A stretch of DNA of 64,000 nucleotides, taken from contig NZ_JACDXT010000048.1 of assembly GCF_016464015.1 (NCBI RefSeq), positions 1 through 64,000 on the forward strand, given 5' to 3'. Position 1 is the first letter of the stretch. Every line of letters starts with the position of its first letter. Source of the stretch: Psychrobacter sp. bablab_jr014. Lineage in GTDB: Bacteria; Pseudomonadota; Gammaproteobacteria; Pseudomonadales; Moraxellaceae. The notes under the pieces are model-generated. The model saw nothing but the letters and a program-made list of their open reading frames with translations. It did not search any database and was not told where the DNA came from. The position numbers and the translations under genes were made by a program. This document shows positions 14,548 to 48,840 of this stretch, piece after piece.

Positions 14548-15456
14548 TTACGCGCTAAGCGTGACCATCAGGTTATCCAGTAGACGCGCTTTACCGAGCC
14601 ATGCTGCCGCCAAAATCACTAAAGCTCTCGTGTCAGTATCCTTGCTGGCTGGCGTATTACTGGCGTCTGTGCTGCTCTCTTCTATAAATAAAGGCTGTAG
14701 CGATTGCGTACGCACTTCAAGATAGTCAATCTCAAAGCCTGCCTCAGTCAAGCGCTCGGCGGCGCGGGTGATGGCATCAGCAAGGCTGTCTTTGGTCAAT
14801 GGCGCACTGTCTTGTAATTCATTTGCCAGTTGCTGCAAGGTTGCTTGTAGTTTGGGCGCGCGTGTCCGCTCATCGGTATTTAAATATTGATTGCGCGAGG
14901 ATAATGCCAAGCCATCGGGCGCACGAATAATGGGCGCGGAGATGATATGAATGGGATAGCTCAAATCGATCACCAACTGTTTGATAATCGCCAGCTGCTG
15001 ATAGTCTTTTTGTCCAAACACTGCCACATCGGGCTGAACGATGTTAAACAGCTTGGACACCACCACGCCCACACCATCAAAATGCGTGGGACGAGAGCGC
15101 CCGCACAGCTCAGCCGTAATCGCACCTGCGCGTACCGATGTCGCCAGTGGCAGTATCGGGTACATCTCGGCAACCTCGGGCGCAAAAACAAAATCTGCGC
15201 CGACGGTTGCCAGTTTTTCAACATCCGCATCGAGCGTGCGCGGATAACTGTCAAAGTCTTCGCCAGCCCCAAACTGTGTGGGATTGACAAAAATACTGAC
15301 CACCACGATATCGGCATATTGCTTGGCAATATTGACCAACTCTAAATGACCGTCGTGCAGATTGCCCATCGTCGGGACAAGGGCGATGCGCTGCGTAGAG
15401 CGCAATGGCTGCAAGGTCGCGCGCAGCTCTGAAATGGTAGAAAACGTCGTTGGCAT
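14548..15456 (-). CDS. panC: Pantothenate synthetase (pantoate-beta-alanine ligase)
   Basis: 302 residues. Joins pantoate and beta-alanine with ATP to make pantothenate. The nucleotidyltransferase signature is in LVPTMGNLHDGHLELV with the HDGH motif. FVNPTQFGAGEDFDSYPRT, FGQKDYQQLAIIKQLV and LALSSRNQYLN are the conserved substrate and KMSKS-type blocks. ATG 15456 is preferred over the adjacent GTG at 15459. It is separated from panB by a 243-base gap that holds the 175-bp repeat element, so the usual panBC pair is split by an insertion. A Ser/Thr-rich loop is inserted near the C-terminus. Confidence 0.95.
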   Translation of the reverse strand: MPTTFSTISELRATLQPLRSTQRIALVPTMGNLHDGHLELVNIAKQYADIVVVSIFVNPTQFGAGEDFDSYPRTLDADVEKLATVGADFVFAPEVAEMYPILPLATSVRAGAITAELCGRSRPTHFDGVGVVVSKLFNIVQPDVAVFGQKDYQQLAIIKQLVIDLSYPIHIISAPIIRAPDGLALSSRNQYLNTDERTRAPKLQATLQQLANELQDSAPLTKDSLADAITRAAERLTEAGFEIDYLEVRTQSLQPLFIEESSTDASNTPASKDTDTRALVILAAAWLGKARLLDNLMVTLSA

Positions 15457-15527
15457 CACAAGGCTCTTTTTAAAGATTTACAAGAAAGACACGCCTTAGC
15501 AGCGCACTCAAAAAATGACCTAAAGAC

Positions 15528-15702
15528 TAGGGCATGTCCCTAATTCAAGCGGTTTATGACTAAATGGGCTAAAAATGGCTAAATCTTTGGCAAACGATGT
15601 CAAATAGCTGGCCAATATCTTGATATTACCTGCGCTATCTTCCTTGTTTGCCTGCGATTTATCTCATTTTTATCACCATTTTTAAAATAGGGACACGACC
15701 TA
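15528..15702. repeat. 175-bp TA-flanked repeat, copy 1 (between panB and panC)
   Basis: Non-coding element with inverted ends TAGGGCATGTCCCTAATT (left) and TAGGTCGTGTCCCTATTT (right, read inward on the minus strand). It is flanked by TA. It closely matches copy 2 (19436-19609) over its whole length, including an internal palindrome AATATCTTGATATT. The size, inverted ends and TA target suggest a MITE-like non-autonomous element; no transposase is present in the window. The right-hand TA plus the first element base forms the TAG stop codon of panB (15700-15702). Confidence 0.8.
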
Positions 15703-16503
15703 ATCAAACTGGTGCTCAGCACGCGGAAATTTACCTGCGCGCACGTGCTCCTGATACAGACGAAATGCGCCTTCGATACTGCGGCTGGTATTGCCCTCAT
15801 CGGTCAAAAAGTCGTGCACAAAACGCGGCACACGACCATGACGCAGCCCGAGCATATCGTGCATGACTAAAACCTGCCCATCTGTATCTGCACCTGCGCC
15901 TATACCAATGACAGGAATAGCGACCGCTTCGGTCACGGCTTTGGCTAAAGCAGCAGGCACGCATTCGAGTACCAAAAGCGCCGCGCCTGCCTCAACGACC
16001 GCTTTGGCTTCTTGAAGCAATAAAGCAGCAGCGTCCTCGGCACGTCCTTGGACTTTATAGCCACCAAAGACATTGACCGATTGCGGCGTCAAGCCCAAAT
16101 GCACGCAGCTTGGCGTGCCTGCTTTAGCAAGGGTCTTGACGATATTGCACAGCTCCGCGCCGCCTTCTAATTTGACCACATGCGCGCCCGCTTGCATCAG
16201 CGTGCGGCTATTAGCAATCGCATCCTCAAGCGTGCTGTAGCTCATAAATGGCAAATCCGCGATAATCAATGCATGCTGATTGCTGCGCGCGACATTCGCC
16301 GTATGATATGCCATATCTGCTACGGTCACAGGAACCGTCGAGCTGTGCCCTTGCACCACCATACCAAGGCTGTCACCAATCAAAATGGTATCAATCTCTG
16401 CGTTGTCCATCATGCGCGCAAACATGGCGTCATAACAGGTTAGGCAAGTGAACTTTGTTCCCTCTTTTTTAAACTTATTCAGGGTGGAGAGTGTCGTCAT
16501 CAT
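15700..16503 (-). CDS. panB: 3-methyl-2-oxobutanoate hydroxymethyltransferase
   Basis: 267 residues. Adds a hydroxymethyl group from methylenetetrahydrofolate to ketoisovalerate, the first committed step to pantothenate. Conserved blocks: [37 protein letters not shown] (metal-binding Asp), [10 protein letters not shown] and [22 protein letters not shown]. Two consecutive ATGs (16503 and 16500) can serve as start. It follows folK by 72 bases in a run pcnB-folK-panB. Its stop codon TAG is made by the end of the repeat element inserted between it and panC. Confidence 0.95.
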
Positions 16504-16575
16504 CTACTCACTGTCTTGTTAAGGCAAGTCGTTTATGCTTCGATGGCTGTGGCTAGGCAGGTTATCGCGCTCGCA

Positions 16576-17112
16576 TTATGTCTGCTCAAAGCGCTTGATG
16601 CCTTGCCAATCATTGGCTAAAGGATGCGCGCTTAAGGCTTGACCTTCGATTTGTGCCACTGCGCCCAGCTCTTTTAGGGGCAGTAATACAAAGTTGCGCT
16701 CATGTAGGCCACTATGCGGCACAGTCAAGCGCGGCTCATTGATTTGCGCATCACCGTATAACAAAATATCGACATCCAAGCTGCGCTCACCCCAGCGGCG
16801 CTCACGCACTCGCGCCGCTTGCTGCTCTAACAGCTGGCAGTAATCGAGCAGCGCTATGGGTGATAAGGTGGTTTCTATACGGACAGCCGCATTGATAAAA
16901 TCAGGCTGGTCTTGCGGTCCCATCGGTACCGATTGATACAGCGATGATGCCGCCACATTTTGAATATGCGGGTGCGCCGCGAGCGCTTGTACTGCGCGCT
17001 GCACATGCTCTGTTGGCGTACCCATAGCATTACTCAAATTGCTGCCCAAGCCGATATAGCAGATCGTCCATACCGAGTCTGACGCAGTATGTTTTGATGT
17101 TGTTGCGCTCAT
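16576..17112 (-). CDS. folK: 6-hydroxymethyl-dihydropterin pyrophosphokinase (HPPK)
   Basis: 178 residues. Transfers pyrophosphate from ATP to hydroxymethyl-dihydropterin in folate synthesis. CYIGLGSNLSN at the start, SLYQSVPMGPQDQPDFINA, then the ATP and metal loop RRWGERSLDVDILLYGD and the HxxxxxRxFVL block HSGLHERNFVLLPL are all typical of HPPK. The start codon lies three bases after the pcnB stop, so translation is probably coupled. The N-terminus carries a short extra segment before the first strand. Confidence 0.95.
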   Translation of the reverse strand: MSATTSKHTASDSVWTICYIGLGSNLSNAMGTPTEHVQRAVQALAAHPHIQNVAASSLYQSVPMGPQDQPDFINAAVRIETTLSPIALLDYCQLLEQQAARVRERRWGERSLDVDILLYGDAQINEPRLTVPHSGLHERNFVLLPLKELGAVAQIEGQALSAHPLANDWQGIKRFEQT

Positions 17113-17115
17113 GAC

Positions 17116-19245
17116 TTATCCTTGCTCAGTATCAGGCTGGCGCGTCTCTTGCGCGTGGGTATCCTCGGTCGCTGCATTGCTGGGCTCGCGGCGGCGACGC
17201 TTGGCAGGGATAGGCCCTTTATTTGGAACGGTCCCTGCGCTTGGCGCGTTATCTGCTGATGCTAATGCCTTTGCGCTTGGCTTTTTCGTAGTGCGCTTTT
17301 TGGGTGCAGATGACACACTATCGACATCATTGCCTTTATTGTCTTGCGCTGTTTGTGCTTTGGTTGTCACGCGTGGCTGTTTTGCCGTTGCTTTAGGGGG
17401 CGTTTGCGGCTGCTGTTCTGTCTGCGCCGTGTCGTTTGCTACCGACCTTTTAAGTGCGTCTTGGTTTAAATGCAAGGCGCGGCGGCGCTTAAACGGTATC
17501 GGCTGATTGCTATTGCCCGCCTCTTCTGGCGTTTTTGCAATCACAGGCGGCACGCTATCAGGCGCAGGCTTGGGCACTTTGGCAACCACAGGCGTGGCTG
17601 GTGCTTTTTTGCTGGGCGCTTGGGTCTCTGCTACGGCATCCGTCTTATTTTTTGCTTTTGGCGCGTGATTTTTTGCCTCGTTGGTGGGCACTTGTGGCGC
17701 GTCAGAAGCGGTGTTGTTTGCCGCTTGATAATCTTCGAGCTTTGGTACGACAGGGTTATTACGAATCACAAATAACGGCTGTGGACGCTTTTCTTTACCG
17801 CTGTCATTGCTAGCTAAAGATAGGCGCTGCAACTGCTGCAACTCGTGCGTGTCTTGCTTGAGCTGCTGCTTGTCGGCACGGCGAGTACGGCGACGACTGC
17901 GGCTGCTTTCTTGCGCGGCGTCTTGCTGCTCAGTGGTTGGGGGCTCTACGCGACTGTCGATAACGGGTGAGACGTCTTTTTGGCGCTTACGATTACGGCT
18001 GCGTTTATGCGCGCCGCGGCGTAGGCTGTCATCAAAATTGGCAATCGCTTGTTGCTGCTCAGACTCTGACAACGTTTGATAATGCTGCCACCATGCGCCC
18101 ATGCCATTCGTTGACTCGGCAAGCGGATGGCGGTCGCCGCACTCTTCACGCAAGAGCAAAAAGTCAAACCCAGCGCGGAAACGCGGATGCTCGGCAAGAT
18201 GAGCAATTTGTTTGCTGCGCGGGGCAGACAGTTTGGGCTGGAGCAGCCAAATATCGCGGATAAACTGCTCGGCAAATTTTGGAATCGCAGTTTTGATGCG
18301 CTGGCGGTCAATGACTTTGCTCGCAGCTTGCATTTGCGCGTCGGCAAATGGCATGTTGCGCTTTTTAAACTTATCGAGTTGATACAGGTAGTTGTCCCAC
18401 AAAAGCGCGGCATAGAAAAACGCAGGATTGATGCTTTTGCCTGCACCAATACGCTTGTCTGTATTTACGGCAACTTGCTGCACAAGCGGGGTTGGCTCGC
18501 TTGGTGGGTAGATAATCAGATGCGCCATCGCGCCCGATTCAAACAGCAGCGGCAATAACGGCACCAGATAGCCGCCTGTGAACATCTTTTGCGACTCGTC
18601 ATACAGGCGGTGTGGCGAGATTTGGTCAAGCAGCGCCCAGTTGTCATCATGGAACTGCGCGGCCAGTGCGTCATCAAACTCAAAGCCCAGCTTGGCTTTA
18701 AAGCGCAGGGCGCGCAATAGGCGCACAGGGTCTTCTTCGATACGCACAGGCGCATCGCCTAATAGGCGTAACGTCTTGCTATTGATGTCATCAACCGCAC
18801 CGCAAAAGTCATGTACGATGCCTTTGAGCGGTTGATAATACAGCGCGTTAATCGAAAAGTCGCGGCGGGCAAAGTCTTGCTGGATATCGCCCCAGACATT
18901 ATCGCGGATTAACATGCCATCTTGAGTGGTGTGCGCATCGCTGGTCGGCGGCGCACGAAAGGTCGCCACTTCAATCAGGTCGCGTCCTGAATACACATGC
19001 GCGAGCTGAAAACGGCGACCGATGACACGGCAGCGCTTGCCAAACACGTCTTTGACCTCGTGCGGCTTGGCATCGGTAACGGCATCAAAATCTTTGGGGC
19101 GCAGACCCAATAAAGTATCACGGACACCGCCGCCGACGATATAGGCGTCAAATCCTGCTCGTGACAGGGTAGCGATGACTTCGATGATAGAATTGGGTAA
19201 TTCAGATTTATTCAGTTCTAACTGCTTGGCGGCACGCTCGGCCAT
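17116..19245 (-). CDS. pcnB: Poly(A) polymerase I with long disordered tail
   Basis: 709 residues. Adds poly(A) tails to RNA 3' ends, promoting decay. Nucleotidyltransferase core: GGGVRDTLLG (38-47) and the catalytic DFDAVT (52-57), then IEVATFRAP, RRDFSINALYY (metal-binding) and EDPVRLLRALRFKAKLGFE. The neck and body continue to about residue 410. Beyond that lie some 300 residues of Lys/Arg, Pro, Ala, Thr and Gln-rich sequence of low complexity. E. coli PcnB has about 455 residues in total. ATG 19245 with AAGGAG at seven bases is chosen over 19275. First gene of pcnB-folK-panB. Confidence 0.93.
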   Translation of the reverse strand: MAERAAKQLELNKSELPNSIIEVIATLSRAGFDAYIVGGGVRDTLLGLRPKDFDAVTDAKPHEVKDVFGKRCRVIGRRFQLAHVYSGRDLIEVATFRAPPTSDAHTTQDGMLIRDNVWGDIQQDFARRDFSINALYYQPLKGIVHDFCGAVDDINSKTLRLLGDAPVRIEEDPVRLLRALRFKAKLGFEFDDALAAQFHDDNWALLDQISPHRLYDESQKMFTGGYLVPLLPLLFESGAMAHLIIYPPSEPTPLVQQVAVNTDKRIGAGKSINPAFFYAALLWDNYLYQLDKFKKRNMPFADAQMQAASKVIDRQRIKTAIPKFAEQFIRDIWLLQPKLSAPRSKQIAHLAEHPRFRAGFDFLLLREECGDRHPLAESTNGMGAWWQHYQTLSESEQQQAIANFDDSLRRGAHKRSRNRKRQKDVSPVIDSRVEPPTTEQQDAAQESSRSRRRTRRADKQQLKQDTHELQQLQRLSLASNDSGKEKRPQPLFVIRNNPVVPKLEDYQAANNTASDAPQVPTNEAKNHAPKAKNKTDAVAETQAPSKKAPATPVVAKVPKPAPDSVPPVIAKTPEEAGNSNQPIPFKRRRALHLNQDALKRSVANDTAQTEQQPQTPPKATAKQPRVTTKAQTAQDNKGNDVDSVSSAPKKRTTKKPSAKALASADNAPSAGTVPNKGPIPAKRRRREPSNAATEDTHAQETRQPDTEQG

Positions 19246-19606
19246 GCACATACTCCTTGCCGGTACTCTTGACATCTCCTATAAACACAGTGTTTATAAG
19301 ATAAATGTACCCGCTAGTTTAACAAATTTTGCAGGCGCTTGGGGCGTTATGACGCGATGTTCGTGGCTATTTTGTCAGCAGCCGACCAAGCGGTGAGTAA
19401 ATGCCCGCCAGCGGTCAGTAATTAGGTGCGACGCTTAGGGCGTGTCTTCAATTCAAACGCTTACGGCTAAACGGGCTAAACATGGCTAAATCTTTGGCAA
19501 ACGGTGTCAAATAGCTGGTCAATATCTTGATATTATCTGTGCTATTTTCCTTGTTTGCCTGCGATTTATCTCATTTTTATCACCATTTTTAAAATGAAGA
19601 CACGCC
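19246..19606. other. Intergenic region between comEA-like and pcnB
   Basis: 361 bases. The right-hand part of the comEA side is repeat copy 2 (19436-19609). The rest, 19246-19435, should hold the pcnB promoter on the minus strand. No gene was seen. Confidence 0.6.
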
Positions 19607-19609
19607 CTA
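19436..19609. repeat. 174-bp TA-flanked repeat, copy 2 (downstream of the comEA-like gene)
   Basis: Same element and orientation as copy 1. Ends TAGGGCGTGTCTTCAATT (left) and TAGGGCGTGTCTTCATTT (right, inward). The inner bases of the two ends match each other inside each copy (TTCA here, CCCT in copy 1) but differ between copies. TA flanks both sides. The right TA and first element base form the TAG stop of the comEA-like gene. Removing one TA and the element would restore a TAA stop. Confidence 0.8.
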
Positions 19610-19975
19610 GTCAATCACGCGGATGCGGGCGCGGTTTTTCTCAAACGTCGCCGCGCCGATGCCTTTGACTTTGGTGATGTCCTTTGGTGTGGCAAAACCA
19701 CCAAACATCTCGCGGTATAAGATAATGGCGCGGGCTTTGCTGCTGCCAATGCCTTGCAACGTCGTCAGTTCTGCTTCGCTGGCGCGGTTGATATTGATGC
19801 TCTGATTATTCACGCGCTTTTGCTGCTGCGTATTTTGGACAGTTAACGCGTCATACGCGGCACGGGCATCGGCGTAACACAAGGGCGCGGCAACCGCTTG
19901 AGTGCTTACCAGTGTAAACAGCGCGAGCAGCCAAAAACTGACGCCAAGATTGCTTAATAAGCGCGCGTTATTCAT
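19607..19975 (-). CDS. comEA: ComEA-like helix-hairpin-helix DNA-binding protein
   Basis: 122 residues. Signal or anchor segment at residues 8-29 (NLGVSFWLLALFTLVSTQAV ending in AA), then a spacer and a helix-hairpin-helix pair: ININRASEAELTTLQGIGSSKARAIILYRE and KDITKVKGIGAATFEKNRARI. This is the ComEA domain, which binds incoming double-stranded DNA in the periplasm during natural transformation. Short secreted relatives also exist with less clear roles. The start overlaps the end of mazG by eight bases, so it is translated from the mazG transcript. The stop codon is provided by repeat copy 2. Confidence 0.85.
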   Translation of the reverse strand: MNNARLLSNLGVSFWLLALFTLVSTQAVAAPLCYADARAAYDALTVQNTQQQKRVNNQSININRASEAELTTLQGIGSSKARAIILYREMFGGFATPKDITKVKGIGAATFEKNRARIRVID

Positions 19976-47973: not shown

Positions 47974-48036
47974 GACACCGTTTGCCAAAAATTTAGCCCA
48001 TTTAATCTTAAGCATTTAAATTAAAGACACGTCCTA
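47974..48036. repeat. Truncated inverted copy (copy 3) of the TA-flanked repeat, after hemD
   Basis: On the minus strand it starts TAGGACGTGTCTTTAATT and continues through GGGCTAAATTTTTGGCAAAC to GGTGTC, matching the left 70 or so bases of copies 1 and 2 with small changes, and then ends. It is in the opposite orientation to those copies. The first three bases TAG are the stop codon of hemD (48034-48036). Confidence 0.7.
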
Positions 48037-48840
48037 ACGGCCTGCTGACTGTAATGTCTGATAAATGTGCTGAGGTGTCAATTCATGTATCAGTACACAA
48101 GACAGCTGTTGCGCTTGTAACAAGGCTTGCAAGCGTACGCCCAGCACCAAGTAGCGAAAGTCATTCAACGGTTCACGTACCACTTGCGCCCAATGCGTAA
48201 ACGCGGCGCCACTACTGATCAGCACCCACGGCTTGTACGTCATACCTGTTTCTTGAGCGCGACTGTTATGCGCGATGCACCAAGCGCGGTACTGTGCGAA
48301 CGCTTCTGTAGGCAATGTGCGCGCATACCACGCAATGCTATCTACTTGTATACCGCGTGCTTGTAAGTCATCGCTCAACAGCCTTCTGCCACCATGACCA
48401 CGCCATATCAGCACCCGCGCACCCGCTTGCAAGCCTGCCAGCTCAGGCATGGCAATGAGTCCCTCATTACTGCTTACCGCTGGCGTTATCAGCTTTGAGG
48501 CAGTTAATAAAGGGTCTTGTTTTAATACCATCAGTGTCCGCCCACCAACCGCGATTACGGTGCGTCTGTGCTGTGCTGGCGGTAATATCTTTAGCGCCGC
48601 CAAGCCATATTCTGCCGCTGTCGGACTAATCACCACCAAGGCATCATACGCGCCTGCCAACCACGCCTGCATATAGCCATGCTCATCACGACCAATCGTA
48701 CAAGGGGTGAGTGCCAGCATGGGCAACGCCACGACTTCGATACCACGCGCCGTCAAATAGTCACTAAGCGCGCCTGCACGCTCATCAGGACGCGTATTAA
48801 TGAATATAGGCGCAGCGTGTTTGATGTCATGAGTCGCCAT
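48034..48840 (-). CDS. hemD: Uroporphyrinogen-III synthase
   Basis: 268 residues. Cyclises hydroxymethylbilane to uroporphyrinogen III in haem synthesis. As usual the sequence is poorly conserved. The family pattern INTRPDERAGALSDYLTARGIEVVALPML, then YDALVVISPTAAEYGL, IAVGGRTLMVL and VLIWRGHGGRRLLSDDLQARG and LISSGAAFTHWAQVV is clear. It starts 60 bases after hemC. Its stop codon TAG comes from the truncated repeat copy 3. Confidence 0.9.
   Translation of the reverse strand: MATHDIKHAAPIFINTRPDERAGALSDYLTARGIEVVALPMLALTPCTIGRDEHGYMQAWLAGAYDALVVISPTAAEYGLAALKILPPAQHRRTVIAVGGRTLMVLKQDPLLTASKLITPAVSSNEGLIAMPELAGLQAGARVLIWRGHGGRRLLSDDLQARGIQVDSIAWYARTLPTEAFAQYRAWCIAHNSRAQETGMTYKPWVLISSGAAFTHWAQVVREPLNDFRYLVLGVRLQALLQAQQLSCVLIHELTPQHIYQTLQSAGR

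Follow-up and report, generated by a model that had tools for sequence, protein, structure and literature searches.

Within a 64,000-nucleotide stretch of the genome of Psychrobacter sp. bablab_jr014 (positions 1 to 64,000 of contig NZ_JACDXT010000048.1, assembly GCF_016464015.1, forward strand; hereafter the window), two complete copies and one truncated, inverted copy of a repeat of about 174 bp each end precisely where a minus-strand gene has its TAG stop codon, the genes being panB, a comEA-like gene and hemD, as a sequence-only reading of the window had described. This repeat is a non-autonomous miniature inverted-repeat transposable element (MITE), being short, non-coding and present in high copy number. 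It inserts at YTAR sites (Y, pyrimidine; R, purine); very probably it is moved by IS5-family insertion sequences (ISs) and reaches stop codons as a by-product of this insertion rule, with no sensor of stop codons at work. Finding three of three window copies at stops is rare by chance; the genome-wide shares are far lower, at 10/33 analysable copies in the host genome and 25/180 among all independent copies analysed.

The host genome carries 40 matches to the repeat at 78-100% identity (40 scored of 86 candidates), far beyond what chance would give, and the repeat was matched in 49 of 60 Psychrobacter genomes, the host included. All 75 named stretches recovered by an element-pattern search (75/75) belonged to Psychrobacter, and the plasmid collection returned nothing besides three Moraxella osloensis records (CP040258.1, NZ_CP024178.1 and NZ_CP024189.1), whose relatives of the element are 74% identical over its whole length. 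Alignment of the host copies revealed terminal inverted repeats of about 13 bp starting GGGCGTGTC, with TA on either side, and the longest frame lying wholly inside copy 1 (at least 20 amino acids being required) spans 21 amino acids. The letters just inside GGGCGTGTC at the left and right ends define matched variants, CTCA/CTCA in 104/180 copies, CCTA/CCTA in 29/180 and TTCA/TTCA in 23/180; as the fifth letter is A at the left end and T at the right, the two ends share all five letters in 1/180. No published description of this MITE family in Psychrobacter was found in the part of the literature covered, which does not prove that none exists. In six host matches out of 40 (L041-L046) the repeat runs into a contig end, the draft assembly breaking inside it, and at one host locus (L026:1517-1612) two adjacent MITE pieces are found close to a full copy and may represent a shorter, internally deleted derivative.

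The insertion site was scored in two samples of independent copies. The first comprised 100 copies (138, less 37 duplicates sharing the same flank and one at an edge), of which 93 were flanked by TA/TA, two by AA/AA and five by mismatched pairs, with a pyrimidine before the left TA and a purine after the right TA in 99/100 each. The second comprised 80 fresh copies from three further genomes, in regions chosen among the matches listed (85, less five duplicates, with 13 partial rows excluded): here TA/TA was found in 78, TG/TG in one and a mismatched pair in one, with the pyrimidine in 80/80 and the purine in 79/80. Pooled over the 180 copies, TA/TA flanks 171, a pyrimidine precedes TA in 179 and a purine follows it in 178; one host copy scored as a mismatch in the first sample (L035) is really TA/TA. 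These counts, together with the single-TA empty sites described below, bear out the earlier proposal of a duplicated TA target. Outside coding interiors, CTAG was used 2.5 times as often as expected and TTAA 0.24 times. Rare AA duplications (site T-AA-G) occur in two host copies (L015:2020-2193 and L025:2017-2190), and a rare TG duplication in one copy of genome G017 (L186:1654-1827). Of the 40 host matches, 33 were analysable after removal of one truncated copy (L039) and the six at contig ends; L074 is a partial copy only.

YTAR is palindromic and therefore presents a TAR triplet on either strand, and the first base of the element is G at both of its ends, so a TAA or TAG stop that is hit becomes TAG and the protein is unchanged. 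Landing in a gene's own stop is thus shown by sequence to leave the protein intact with TAG as its stop, whichever way the element lies. When the element and one TA were removed from the 25 stop-codon copies, the stop of the joined empty site read TAA in 14 and TAG in 11, the gene being left of the element in 17 cases and right of it in eight; in place, the stop was TAG in every such copy from the host and G026 (17/17). The arithmetic set out in the sequence-only reading, TA plus G giving TAG from either TAA or TAG, is supported.

In the window, copy 1 (15528-15702, plus strand), a CCT-subfamily member of 175 bp when the TA on either side is counted, lies in the target C-TA-A, with its TA duplications at 15528-15529 and 15701-15702. 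The TAG stop of panB (ketopantoate hydroxymethyltransferase, 267 amino acids; 15700-16503, minus strand) occupies 15700-15702 and consists of the duplicated TA and the G of the element. Copy 2 (19436-19609, plus strand), from the TTC subfamily and 174 bp long with its two flanking TAs, lies in the target T-TA-G, and its end coincides with the TAG stop (19607-19609) of the comEA-like helix-hairpin-helix gene (122 amino acids; 19607-19975, minus strand), and the joined empty site of this gene reads TAA, in agreement with the stop first deduced for it. Copy 3 (47974-48036, minus strand) is an inverted remnant of the left part, 63 bp long with a 10-bp internal deletion, which aligned to two reference copies with scores of 62 and 67 versus shuffle maxima of 25 and 24 (200 shuffles each). 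Its end coincides with the TAG stop (48034-48036) of hemD (uroporphyrinogen-III synthase, 268 amino acids; 48034-48840, minus strand), and TA is present at this end only, the end away from hemD being a truncation without TA; the description of every copy as bounded by TA is thus correct for copies 1 and 2 and wrong for copy 3.

Empty sites were sought in relatives of the host. In the nearest, G053, copies 1 and 2 are absent, a single TA stands at each place and the stops align, which is what the sequence-only reading had suggested looking for. The panB stop was aligned in G053 and seven further relatives (8 of 30 loci aligned); for the comEA-like gene, G053 alone was convincing among 6 aligned of 30 loci. 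For hemD, comparison of protein ends by eye showed as many residues following the last shared IY in the host protein as in that of G053. Copy-to-copy comparison of empty sites gave seven alignments, of which two were clean and the rest poor or self matches; loci L185 and L203 form a reciprocal pair with two clean empty sites. Occupied and empty orthologous sites together show past movement of the element.

To place copies relative to genes, genes were called on the joined empty sites with a purpose-written codon-usage caller, not taken from annotation, and the copies were compared with a background made up of the remaining YTAR sites in those stretches. Copies were nearly absent from coding DNA (5/180, versus 4104/6442, or 64%, of background YTAR sites), and of three coding copies in one gene-calling set two lay near a called start and not at a gene 3' end. 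Within 30 bp upstream of gene starts, two copies were seen versus 17.6 expected. On the 3' side, stops held 25/175 non-coding copies versus 12.5 expected (twofold, p = 0.0007), the 0-10 bp downstream of genes held 21 versus 7.0 (3.0-fold), and the 11-30 bp downstream held 28 versus 12.6 (2.2-fold). At stops the excess does not surpass that of the following 30 bp, which makes stops one part of a general 3'-side zone. The share of copies at stops was near 30% in two sets (the host and G026) and 0-9% in the other four, and the share at stops and in the next 30 bp combined was similar across the six sets, at 33-51%. An RNase III gene of the host has a copy at its stop (L017:2211-3005, host contig C38), and the messenger for this nuclease of double-stranded RNA may therefore bear a long hairpin after its own stop.

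We next consider the likely source of the transposase. The host carries a decayed 826-bp element with ends GGGCGTGTCATCAATTA, and when part of its transposase was used as a query, 69 of 105 Psychrobacter genomes showed matches. From 50 loci, less ten without recognisable ends and ten duplicates, we obtained 30 independent ISs of 805-860 bp with recognisable ends. All 30 are inserted at TA within YTAR; two lie in a stop codon (L294 and L337) and four in called genes. Many of these ISs carry TTCA on both sides (L327, L328, L331, L333, L337 and L342), CCTA on both sides (L326 and L341), or CTCA on one side and CCTA on the other (L324, L325, L329 and L330), and the terminal match between MITE and IS extends over about 13-18 letters; it is two-sided in the TTCA and CCTA subfamilies and one-sided in CTCA. 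In 14/30 ISs a pair of overlapping open frames survives, 148-166 and 179-185 amino acids long; in L327 and L337 the second is broken. In L326 the two frames match DUF4096 and DDE_Tnp_1 (Pfam) and are assigned to the IS5 family by NCBIfam, where the second open reading frame passes the NF033580 cut-off and the first alone falls below it. These IS5-family elements of the genus, of about 840 bp, are the likely movers of the MITE; NCBIfam gives IS5 family only, and the label IS427-like would apply by resemblance in size, layout and duplication. An unusual right end, with the sequence GGGCGTGTACCATTATTC or nearly so, is shared by three IS copies (L354:240-300, L339:1894 and L340:1906); in L354 it forms an almost perfect palindrome with the transposase end beside it, as if rewritten by snap-back.

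Taken together, these data suggest the following course of events. IS427-like transposases of the IS5 family in the genus would most likely move the MITE in trans, inserting it at palindromic YTAR and duplicating TA, the site and duplication being those observed at the copies. Where a copy enters a gene's own TAA or TAG stop, the TA stays and the element supplies the G that completes TAG. Copies inside genes or just upstream of them, nearly absent today, would most simply have been lost by selection, leaving intergenic survivors that are most crowded in the interval between the stop codon and a point 30 bp past it, so that stop-codon landings would make up a predictable share of the harmless sites.

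Several observations weigh against this explanation. A complete parent with matching ends was not found in the draft host assembly, in which only the decayed element, one truncated end and a different type of IS5 element were seen; G017 and G026 yielded distant relatives only, and G009 none. Matches between MITE and IS away from the MITE ends are weak (19/135 hits, E 0.14 to 5.8 among the ten listed), so that the link between the two rests on the ends and the site, and it is from these, given the weak internal matches and the lack of a complete parent in the draft host, that we infer mobilisation in trans. The empty-site alignment of the comEA-like gene contains a 14-base gap three bases from the site. 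Finally, stops are strongly over-represented in the host (10/30 non-coding YTAR copies versus 2.2 expected, p = 3e-5) and in G026 (7/24 versus 1.8, p = 0.001), and the share at stops differs among sets (p = 0.005).

This last group of observations, with the pooled excess at stops, is what would favour a transposase that senses translation termination or the 3' end of a gene, a safe landing in which stops are preferred beyond the availability of YTAR. The host genome shows the excess clearly, the rest weakly. None is seen in the named genus loci and first-hit loci (4/63 versus 4.6 expected), in G017 (3/34 versus 2.4) or in G044 (1/18 versus 1.3), and with the host left out all sets together give 15/139 versus 10.1 (p = 0.08). 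The host set contains the two copies that prompted the idea, and at the pooled rate at least 10/33 would arise there with p = 0.014; the genome behind G026 is apparently also present in the named set, with 15 further copies of which one is at a stop, so its share may be 8/41. Across all sets 155/180 copies lie away from stops, the outcome that the sequence-only reading had itself named as refuting, and the next 30 bp are at least as enriched, which runs counter to the suggested landing preference for stop codons as such; of the earlier alternatives, safe landing or selection, it is selection against harmful sites that is the likelier cause of the pattern. Occupied sites and other 3'-side YTAR sites (75 versus 434) were also alike in folding energy (p = 0.76) and AT content (p = 0.35), which argues against such sensing and on which we rejected a preference for terminators. 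We consider a sensing transposase very unlikely. Distinctly improbable, too, seems a variant in which stops attract or retain the MITE of some lineages more than YTAR availability explains (as the 10/30 of the host might indicate), and the conserved full-length hairpin then serves as a mobile module of the 3' untranslated region, resetting the stop to TAG and leaving the protein untouched.

A different account would have insertions behind genes kept because a long hairpin is useful in the transcript, through 3'-end protection, RNase III processing or termination. The element indeed folds over its whole length on either strand (z -7.0 and -9.3; A1 alignment, L010:2042-2215), both sides had changed in 16 of 65 base pairs versus 9.0 in shuffles and 6-8 in slid controls, and copies are enriched just downstream of genes. 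Four of the 16 doubly changed pairs lie in the terminal stem, where transposase recognition of the terminal repeats would require matching changes, and 12 lie inside, away from that stem; kinship among copies, with expansion of subfamilies inflating the counts, weakens the paired changes as evidence of function. RNAalifold gave a weak consensus on the same alignment (-12.8 kcal/mol), no terminator-like hit was found inside copies 1 or 2, and no Rfam family reached threshold in 15300-19900. The positional profile, moreover, is equally expected from the loss of harmful copies, and we regard a useful hairpin as an unlikely reason for the pattern. The TA duplication would also fit a TA-inserting MITE of IS630/Tc1 type, similar to RUP; the terminal repeats match IS5-family elements instead, and PF13358 had no match in the host genome, the one searched, so an IS630-type origin was rejected as scarcely credible.

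The element can be set beside several known systems. TA likewise features in the insertion of RUP and Correia elements, RU-1 is the unit also known as ERIC, and RUP, Correia and ERIC are short repeats like the Psychrobacter MITE. ISAba12 belongs to the IS5 family. MITEAba12 of Acinetobacter and Moraxella, matched to ISAba12 elements, is described in the relevant passages as 111-114 bp long with 9-bp duplications (PMC6382973); it shares the MITE type and the bacterial family with the Psychrobacter element, which at about 174 bp and with a TA duplication we did not count as a member. For IS711 (IS6501) of Brucella, passages of two papers give 842 bp, two overlapping open reading frames believed to be joined by a -1 frameshift, and duplication of the TA of a consensus YTAR (PMC2266754, PMC3163539). 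It resembles the likely Psychrobacter parents in size, frame layout and site. Unlike the MITE it is autonomous, and it is restricted to a genus other than Psychrobacter; neither paper uses the term 'stop codon' in its main text. YTAR is likewise given as the duplication motif of E. coli IS5 in a passage of PMC10359306, and IS5 elements of the IS427 group in Paracoccus (IS1248, ISPaes2) are listed at 832-865 bp with a mostly 2-bp duplication in part of PMC3281130; they are like the Psychrobacter ISs in size, layout and duplication, and the group assignment would follow from these features.

Repeats that supply stop codons have been described before. According to the passages on BOX repeats of Streptococcus pneumoniae, they provide the stop codon in 36 of 58 overlapping genes, with no strong evidence of truncation (PMC3049150); BOX is a different repeat family, and the YTAR rule does not occur in those passages. 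The same source, where it treats RUP, notes that its ends resemble IS630-Spn1 (PMC3049150). For enterobacterial units, TA ends, TA duplication and stem-loops are reported in the sections concerned, as is one RU-1 copy that apparently removed the normal stop and lengthened the protein (PMC2759123). Within these parts of the literature, the YTAR/TA rule is thus already published for IS711, and stops supplied by a repeat without clear truncation are already reported for BOX. In Psychrobacter, landings in stop codons look like the by-product of an ordinary insertion rule and not like a targeting system.

What the present case adds is a simple rule for repeats that seem to supply stop codons: at a palindromic YTAR target, the stop is rebuilt by an element whose first base is G (or A). 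It predicts where a class of IS5-family elements can land without harm. Our analysis also documents a genus-wide MITE family in Psychrobacter together with its probable parents, and the matched end variants suggest that the transposases recognise these ends specifically.

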